Shown here: in pieces, positions 840-61,923 of the stretch
Layout of the letters: each line of letters begins with the position of its first letter
How positions within the stretch are numbered: the stretch's first letter is position 1
From: Oscillospiraceae bacterium
GTDB lineage: Bacteria; Bacillota; Clostridia; Saccharofermentanales; Saccharofermentanaceae
NCBI GenBank assembly: GCA_902788505.1
Contig: CADAKH010000001.1
Location: 1 to 64,000, forward strand
DNA: 64,000 nucleotides
Direction: 5' to 3'
Made by a program: the position numbers and the translations under genes
Notes under the pieces: model-generated
The model's input: the letters and a program-made list of their open reading frames with translations, nothing else
Databases searched by the model: none
Told to the model about the DNA's origin: nothing

Positions 840-1142
840 TTAGATTCGGTGGTTATTGGATACAGTCGGTACTTCCGCACGCGCGCGTTGATTGATTTTT
901 GAAACGAATGCCGTTCCCGCTCCGATAAATGTATTATTACCAATTTCGACGTTATCACAATTAGTGACTTTATCTTCGCTTATGCAATCATCTCCAATTA
1001 AAACATTTTCAGAAATACAGACATGGCTACCTATTCTTACACGTTCTCCAATGCGTGTGTTTTTTCCGACGCAGGAGAAGAACCCGATGCTACTACTATT
1101 GCAAATATAAGCATCTTTATCGATACATATGGTTTCTGACAT
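840..1142 (-). pseudogene. Truncated left-handed beta-helix acyltransferase
   Basis: The 100-residue product consists of hexapeptide-repeat turns (IGFFSCVGKNTRIGERVRIG, VEIGNNTFIGAGTAF) like the N-terminal half of sugar O-/N-acetyltransferases of the left-handed beta-helix family. In relatives the pattern continues well past the segment matching AFVSKINQRAR. Here the frame ends after about 20 unrelated-looking residues, next to the rpsI terminator, so at least half the fold is missing. It shares a TAATG overlap with the upstream formyltransferase gene, so the two were one operon. I infer a truncated remnant. Acceptor sugar and acyl donor cannot be read. Confidence 0.6.
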
Positions 1143-1831
1143 TATAAAGTCCTTTCTATGCCGTTGGTATTTTTGTATTCATCAAATCGTTCCATCAAGT
1201 GTTGCTCAATGTTAGCAGGCATACGTTTATGAAGGACGAACCCATCAGGATGCATCATAATCAAATTATCGGTTTGGTACTTCTCAACTGCTTCAACAAG
1301 CATGGACACTTCGTTTTCATATACTCTTTGTGCAAGCGCGTGAAAGGTATCTGTTTTATATACAGGGATGAGCCTACGCTCAATCACTTGTCCTGCATCC
1401 ACGTAATCACCTATCAAATGTGTGGTTACACCTATCGGCTGGTTTTCTACAATTGCCCATTTGACGGCATCTAACCCCCTGCAATTTGGAATATAGCCTG
1501 GGTGAGCATTTATAAGTGTATGAGTTTTAACAAATTCCTCTGGAATGATTCCAGCCCCTGCTATAAGTATTATGCGATCTGTTTCAATCTGAAAATCCGC
1601 CAATTGTCCTTGCTTATATTGATAACTTAGATTACTGCATAGCTGTTCCATTGGTGGAACGTTATAATTCATTTCGGGTCGATGCTGATATATTGGGAAG
1701 GTTTTCTTTTGATAATGAAAAGGAATGGCATATACTATAACATCTTTATATCCATTTGCTTTGAGAATGCTAATGAGGTCAAAGGTTTTTCTGTGTTTTA
1801 CTGGATAAGTAAGCACCCCGATTTTTTTCAT
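1142..1831 (-). CDS. Formyltransferase-family protein (sugar N-formyltransferase-like)
   Basis: The protein has 229 residues and the core of the methionyl-tRNA / sugar N-formyltransferase fold: INAHPGYIPNCRGLDAVKWA carries the HPG signature, and GDYVDAGQVI carries the conserved Asp region. These enzymes transfer formyl from 10-formyl-tetrahydrofolate. It lacks the extra C-terminal domain of Fmt and lies beside an acyltransferase remnant, which suggests an amino-sugar acceptor in surface-glycan synthesis; this is inference. The region is more AT-rich than the flanking ribosomal genes and lies on the opposite strand, consistent with horizontal acquisition. Confidence 0.7.
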   Translation of the reverse strand: MKKIGVLTYPVKHRKTFDLISILKANGYKDVIVYAIPFHYQKKTFPIYQHRPEMNYNVPPMEQLCSNLSYQYKQGQLADFQIETDRIILIAGAGIIPEEFVKTHTLINAHPGYIPNCRGLDAVKWAIVENQPIGVTTHLIGDYVDAGQVIERRLIPVYKTDTFHALAQRVYENEVSMLVEAVEKYQTDNLIMMHPDGFVLHKRMPANIEQHLMERFDEYKNTNGIERTL

Positions 1832-1963
1832 AGTTGTACCTTCTGTTCCATAAAGGAATTCAAATAGCTATTGATATCTAAACGTATTATATATAAATAT
1901 CTAATTGTAGCATATTCGACGATCCGCTATCAATCTAGACTTAATACAAAGCGAGGTATGAAT

Positions 1964-2145
1964 ATGAGCAAGGAACCAATCATAATAAAAAACGGGGCGA
2001 GGATGGAAGCAAAATTATTACCGTTCGAATAAAAGAAAACATTCTGAGAGCATTGGACGAAATTGCCGCTGAGAGCAATTATTCCAGAAATGAACTTATA
2101 AATATAATATTAAGCCATGGGATAGAAAACATTGAAATACAGTAA
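1964..2145 (+). pseudogene. Ribbon-helix-helix (CopG/Arc-type) protein, reading frame shifted at A AAA AAC
   Basis: The start at 1964 has an AGG-type SD at 1954-1956. The first frame encodes MSKEPIIIKN and soon ends in TAA near 2032. The -1 frame then encodes a clear ribbon-helix-helix domain: ITVRIKENILRALDEIA (beta strand and helix A) and SNYSRNELINIILSHGIE (helix B), ending at 2145. The frames join at 1987-1993, which reads A AAA AAC in the zero frame. A one-base loss in the A6/G4 run would make this a pseudogene; programmed -1 frameshifting or transcript slippage would make it a regulated gene of about 60 residues. RHH proteins are small DNA-binding repressors or antitoxins. No toxin gene is visible beside it. 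Confidence 0.65.
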
Positions 2146-2156
2146 ATGGTAAAGAA

Positions 2157-2183
2157 GCGGCGGAGTGTTCCGCCGCATTTGTT
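2157..2183 (+). terminator. Rho-independent terminator after the RHH gene
   Basis: An 8-bp perfect stem GCGGCGGA / TCCGCCGC with a GTGT loop is followed by ATTTGTT. It sits 12 bp after the RHH stop codon. Confidence 0.8.
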
Positions 2184-61387: not shown

Positions 61388-61464
61388 TCTTGACACTGTA
61401 AAGAAAAGGCAGTTCGTTCTGGATTTGCAATAACTTAACGCTGACAAGATTGAAGGCAAATAGT

Positions 61465-61923
61465 ATGGAGCATGCTATAGAATTCATTCCGTATAACGAT
61501 TCATATAAGCAGCAGGTTTTCGATTTTACCTGTACTTGTTTTGAAGAGCTCGGCAAGAAGTTCGAACCATCAGGCAGACACAGTTTTTATAACGACATCG
61601 GTAATGAGTTTGAAGTATTCTTTTGCCTGGTCGATCAGGAGAAGGTTATTGGAACGGTTGCATTGAAAAAGGTTGATGATTATACTGTTGAACTCAAAGC
61701 AATGTATCTCGATCGTAACTACAGAGGTAAGGGACTCGGAAGAAAACTGATGGATAAAGCTGTTGATGAAGCAAGATGTCTTGGGTATAAGTGCATCGTT
61801 CTTGATTCAATGTCACAGTACAAAGATGCTTTAAGATTGTATGAGAAGACCGGTTTTAAAATGACGGAAAGATATAATGATAATGTTTATGCAGATGTAT
61901 TTATGAGATTGGATTTTGAGTGA
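61465..61923 (+). CDS. GNAT-family N-acetyltransferase
   Basis: I chose the ATG at 61465 over a TTG at 61450, giving 152 residues. The acetyl-CoA site is MYLDRNYRGKGLGRKLMDKA, and YKDALRLYEKTGFKMTERY is the motif B region. It is upstream of the interrupted gene at 61938 by 14 bp. Substrate unknown. Confidence 0.87.
   Translation: MEHAIEFIPYNDSYKQQVFDFTCTCFEELGKKFEPSGRHSFYNDIGNEFEVFFCLVDQEKVIGTVALKKVDDYTVELKAMYLDRNYRGKGLGRKLMDKAVDEARCLGYKCIVLDSMSQYKDALRLYEKTGFKMTERYNDNVYADVFMRLDFE

Follow-up and report, generated by a model that had tools for sequence, protein, structure and literature searches.

A probable one-base break at an A-run of a ribbon-helix-helix regulator gene that resembles a programmed frameshift site

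The gene at positions 1964-2145 of the window (the whole 64,000-nucleotide stretch analyzed here, from an Oscillospiraceae bacterium) is, with high probability, an ordinary ribbon-helix-helix (RHH, CopG/Arc-type) regulator gene the frame of which is broken by a one-base shortfall in an A-run of Lys-Lys-Arg codons, caused either by a recent replication-slippage mutation or by a consensus error. An ordinary one-base break is indicated by the combination of a single frame in nearly all relatives examined, a break located within an A-run and a conserved domain. The locus and its surroundings comprise the following features (positions in the window).

840-1142, minus strand: hexapeptide-repeat acyltransferase-like protein, downstream of the formyltransferase gene (Pfam)
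1142-1831, minus strand: formyltransferase-like protein (Formyl_trans_N), the divergent neighbor (Pfam)
1902-1933, plus strand: conserved upstream block, likely the operator/promoter region between the divergent genes (pattern counts)
1951-1958, plus strand: ribosome-binding site region of the zero-frame start (anti-Shine-Dalgarno pairing)
1964-2032, plus strand: zero frame, with the RHH start and N-terminal arm followed by an out-of-frame tail and stop (open reading frame)
1987-1993, plus strand: in-register A AAA AAC, at the A-run that holds the frame break
1990-2145, plus strand: -1 frame, with the RHH domain (RHH_1, CopG-type) and stop (translation, Pfam)
2157-2176, plus strand: terminator-like hairpin, 3' of the RHH gene

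The frames, coordinates and heptamer described for 1964-2145 in an earlier note on this DNA are all found again. The zero frame does end early, at a stop codon in 2030-2032, giving 22 residues counted from the ATG at 1964 (a second ATG, at 1958, is in the same frame); the region 1951-1958 shows the best anti-Shine-Dalgarno pairing in the stretch preceding the start (-7.2 kcal/mol), and of 55 upstream regions of the family, the window's among them, 42 carry GAGGT, GGAGG or AGGAG no more than 25 nt from the start. The claim that the -1 frame encodes an RHH domain also stands: this frame, 51 residues from 1990 to 2145, matches the Pfam profile RHH_1 (PF01402) with 23.8 bits against a cut-off of 20.5. 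No NCBIfam family scores above its cut-off for the domain, and no PDB sequence matches it at E up to 0.1. The crossover, as can be read directly in the sequence, coincides with A AAA AAC at 1987-1993, which conforms in register to the X XXY YYZ pattern of programmed -1 frameshifting. Since the -1 frame lacks a start codon ahead of the domain (no ATG, GTG or TTG after the upstream stop), ordinary initiation does not yield the whole domain, and the possibility of an independent start for this frame was rejected on the same ground. The zero-frame N-terminus, MSKEPIIIK, is identical in 8 of 9 residues in two related loci, L004 and L009, which indicates that the zero-frame and -1-frame parts belong together. 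As assembled, then, the start and the domain are in different frames and the gene has no single translatable frame.

In the relatives, the two parts are typically joined. A scan of genome contigs identifies 75 related loci, mainly from Clostridia, Lachnospiraceae or Oscillospiraceae according to the record titles (the title of L038 has Bacilli); one of the six peptide patterns used here and in the viral scan was derived from the first eight residues of the query, P0001, which begins at 1963 and in this initial portion is not part of the RHH gene. An in-frame start 15-60 nt ahead of the domain is present in 71 of the 75 (L049 is included solely via a TTG, its usual start region being gone); among the other four, L038 and L043 are frame-broken, L045 is at a contig end and L078 has an internal deletion. 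The earlier note had named close homologs with both parts in one frame and no heptamer as an outcome that would speak against its reading, and a single frame is what the scan finds; of the three possibilities raised there, programmed frameshifting, transcript slippage and a simple one-base deletion, it is the deletion that the same relatives support. A second count covers 103 loci (the 75 and 29 new ones from a class-level search of 391 genomes, minus L078): 99 are in one frame (91 distinct and 8 repeats), two are broken and two, L045 and L137, are at contig ends, whereas the -1 split at A AAA AAC is found in none. The break is thus not shared among homologs, as expected of a recent pseudogene, the two broken loci being broken differently from the window. 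As for L078 itself (L078:2973-3081), this is another member of the family, probably inactivated.

The distribution of the domain is patchy. It is detected in one of 115 genomes of the taxonomic family and in one of 188 genomes of the order, in both cases the window's own; at E up to 1e-4, it is found in 50 of 391 genomes of the class, window's own counted. From the matches of this class-level search, just the 29 new loci entered the count above; the weaker ones, with identity as low as 29%, may represent different RHH proteins. In viral contigs, there are 26 pattern matches, none of them to a relative; no relative was found in phages, and plasmids yield one distant match with 43% identity. An intact duplicate of the gene elsewhere in this genome (87% complete) was considered and rejected, the sole weak match (E 0.52) having an internal stop.

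Examination of the break site in the one-frame relatives suggests where the heptamer comes from. At this site, these genes often encode Lys-Lys-Arg or Lys-Arg-Arg after an Ile, and the A-run varies from 1 to 8 As among the 91 distinct one-frame loci, with at least six As (eight at most) in 22. Just five of the 91 have such a motif in register, A AAA AAG in four and A AAA AAC in one (L140), so that the conservation of the heptamer that the note had proposed to look for does not materialize; given that these five carry it within a single frame, the motif is tolerated. The letters of the heptamer thus derive from the protein's own A-rich codons and its register from the frame break. Neither is the motif rare in the window: among 60 mechanically listed, non-overlapping open reading frames (ORFs) of at least 90 amino acids, A AAA AAC occurs in register twice and A AAA AAG four times. 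The heptamer is best read as a by-product: loss of one base in the A-run of the Lys-Lys-Arg codons, by replication slippage or as a consensus error, would leave A AAA AAC in register. The unbroken protein would act as a dimeric repressor, with the conserved block at 1902-1933 as its binding site and with its own gene and the divergent formyltransferase/acyltransferase pair under its control, and the gene as assembled would produce a 22-residue peptide and no regulator.

Two relatives are frame-broken at the same A-run as the window, in opposite directions, L043 by -1 and L038 by +1. When a homopolymer is broken both ways, replication slippage or sequence errors are a better fit than a programmed signal. 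The L043 break has the same direction and place as that of the window and in this respect counts against the preferred explanation, but the heptamer there is G AAA AAC; by eye, the L043 domain also no longer has one arginine and one acidic residue that are retained in the other domains listed. The contig carrying L038 stops 40 nt past the stop codon of the gene, so that this break may be an error.

The window domain retains its conserved residues. Compared to L004, there are 7 nonsynonymous differences (pN 0.058), and the synonymous differences are saturated, so that no age can be assigned to the break. The pN values between relatives are 0.068 (L004-L005) and 0.081 (L004-L007); the window is further off from the same two loci than L004 is (0.101 and 0.099, respectively), by roughly 2 to 4 changes over the 51 codons, and its pN to L006, L008, L009 and L010 ranges from 0.096 to 0.145. 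Decay of the domain thus appears to be slight and the branch perhaps a little longer; the mixed values for L005 and L007 were counted against the preferred explanation. Such limited decay implies that the break is recent, is a consensus error or is bypassed. As for an error, a generally poor assembly is unlikely because no frame-break candidate was detected in 120 relative ORFs that match the window at more than 55% identity (from 316 mechanical ORFs of three relatives, antisense ones included, reaching 31 of the 60 window ORFs); A or T runs of at least six occur 33 times within the 60. These clean neighboring genes, too, were counted against the preferred explanation. One genome survey expects BLASTp-validated singleton frame transitions to reflect sequencing errors and not genuine indels (PMC3711429). 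Elsewhere in the window, a 157-residue ORF (61450-61923) corresponds to residues 289-435 of a 435-residue ORF of a relative and is possibly a shortened gene.

The conserved domain would also fit a product that is still being made. The closest alternative holds that the indel is real but that slippage in the A-run, either of the transcript or, unspecifically, of the ribosome, partly makes up for it, such that a little regulator is still produced; it overlaps the preferred explanation, and the odds need not sum to one. Slippage is reported to restore disrupted frames in bacterial genes (PMC1088944). According to the same study, selection against slippage becomes evident at nine nucleotides in a large share of genomes, with a length that varies among bacteria. 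The run of six As falls short of that length, and the slight decay is equally well explained by a recent break or an error, so that rescue is considered unlikely.

If the ribosome underwent programmed -1 frameshifting at A AAA AAC, the full regulator would be made at a set low level and the 22-residue peptide otherwise; this reading is not supported and is less probable still. The heptamer at the crossover is perfect and in register, the domain is conserved, and A_AAA_AAC ranks with the shiftiest heptamers on mammalian ribosomes. A weak Shine-Dalgarno-like stretch (-4.9 kcal/mol) is located about 11 nt upstream of the heptamer, but it is absent from L004 and L009. With regard to downstream RNA structure, the 80 nt past the heptamer fold no better than shuffled sequences (z -0.04), and 60-nt folds starting 5, 7 and 9 nt past it (-5.8, -7.4 and -7.4 kcal/mol, respectively) form no stem and are weak against the window background (mean -10.2 kcal/mol, sd 3.8, n 179). 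In favor of a programmed signal, and counted against the preferred explanation, A_AAA_AAC is the proven frameshift site of an insertion sequence (IS) cluster, with no stimulator established there; 39 of 64 heptamers slip in E. coli at no less than twice the background without a stimulator (PMC4066793), and an archaeal virus also employs A_AAA_AAC (PMC5009743). Against this stand the 103 loci, none with the -1 split at this heptamer, and a literature search that found no paper pairing an RHH protein with a programmed frameshift. Least probable of all is phase variation, in which the length of the A-run would turn the regulator on and off: the run is broken in three loci (the window, L038 and L043), with both directions represented, but the length of the run is not conserved in the one-frame loci, two broken loci in 103 fit ordinary indels, and one of the two, L038, may be an error.

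The RHH gene is located between rpsI and tsaE and is divergent from the formyltransferase gene. The stretch 840-2210 is unmatched in 84 other genomes of the genus, save for one 31-base match; it amounts to an insert, consisting of the formyltransferase, hexapeptide acyltransferase and RHH genes, that has no counterpart in the genus relatives searched. Both rpsI and tsaE are present in 20 of 29 fetched genus loci, with gaps of 102-456 bp in 11 and of about 0.9-1.3 kb in 9 (individual sizes are listed for 12 of the 20), so that the rpsI-tsaE gap is variable in the genus. Neither the formyltransferase-like nor the hexapeptide acyltransferase-like protein has a match in the 29 genus loci or beside the 75 related RHH loci of the contig scan (flanks up to 3 kb), and no NCBIfam model scores above its cut-off for either.

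The upstream block is common to much of the family. The pattern ATTGTADYATA, with at most one mismatch, is present in 45 of 55 upstream regions compared to 2.4 in shuffles, GTATTACA in 35 compared to 5.8, TGTCAAT in 46 compared to 16.0, and TATAATT in 50, little over the 38.4 in shuffles; this enrichment is descriptive, the patterns having been picked after viewing the same sequences, the shuffles keeping single-base content alone and the loci being related. The window is one of the 55 regions and carries the patterns too; the exact pattern of its block occurs once in the genome. A promoter-like site on the minus strand (1933-1904) overlaps the block, with 7 such sites in the same scan and 7.1 expected. 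Among 70 loci (L038, L043, L045, L049 and L078 left aside), the upstream neighbor is divergent in 53, on the same strand in 15 and absent in two. A hydrophobic N-terminus is found in 30 of the 53 divergent neighbors vs 56 of 418 other ORFs, these being mechanical ORFs of at least 60 amino acids, such that some of the neighbors and many of the controls may not be genes. In the 38 of the 53 that were compared to Pfam, the families found include zinc-ribbon, BspA-type leucine-rich repeat, Big_2, TM2 and dockerin, among others, and the most common accounts for just five of the 38. Taken together, L004-L077 and the window block at 1902-1933 represent scattered small RHH genes with a common upstream block and unrelated, often exported or surface-associated neighbors.

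Members of this family are predicted to be local repressors with interchangeable targets and putative binding to the common block, and the scattered family could possibly be a portable repressor-operator module. Narrow literature searches found no paper combining all of their terms, a weak indication that the family is undescribed. A bolder version, in which Clostridia attach an undescribed portable regulator-plus-operator module to varied surface-protein genes and slippage at the A-run (of DNA, RNA or the ribosome) switches on the divergent glycan-modifying genes here, is very improbable. These small RHH genes, which have a block in common and are mostly divergent from unrelated, often exported proteins, are of more interest than the heptamer and may deserve further work. 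The case itself matters little as a frameshift candidate; it illustrates how A-rich Lys-Lys-Arg codons can make the loss of one base resemble a textbook slippery heptamer.

Compared to the programmed -1 frameshifting of E. coli dnaX and the IS3 family, the window gene is similar in having an in-register A-rich heptamer, although the heptamer ends with AAC rather than with AAG as in dnaX, and it differs in the lack of a conserved split and of a detected downstream stimulator. RHH_1/CopG-type regulators (PF01402) are dimers that bind a symmetric operator. The -1-frame domain of the window resembles them, scoring above the Pfam cut-off; in contrast, the window gene is split over two frames as assembled. 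As a candidate operator, just the conserved upstream block was found. The break has a parallel in the singleton frame-transition genes of GeneTack as characterized in PMC3711429: likewise, the break is not common to the homologs, although the window gene was classed by hand, from its relatives, rather than by GeneTack.
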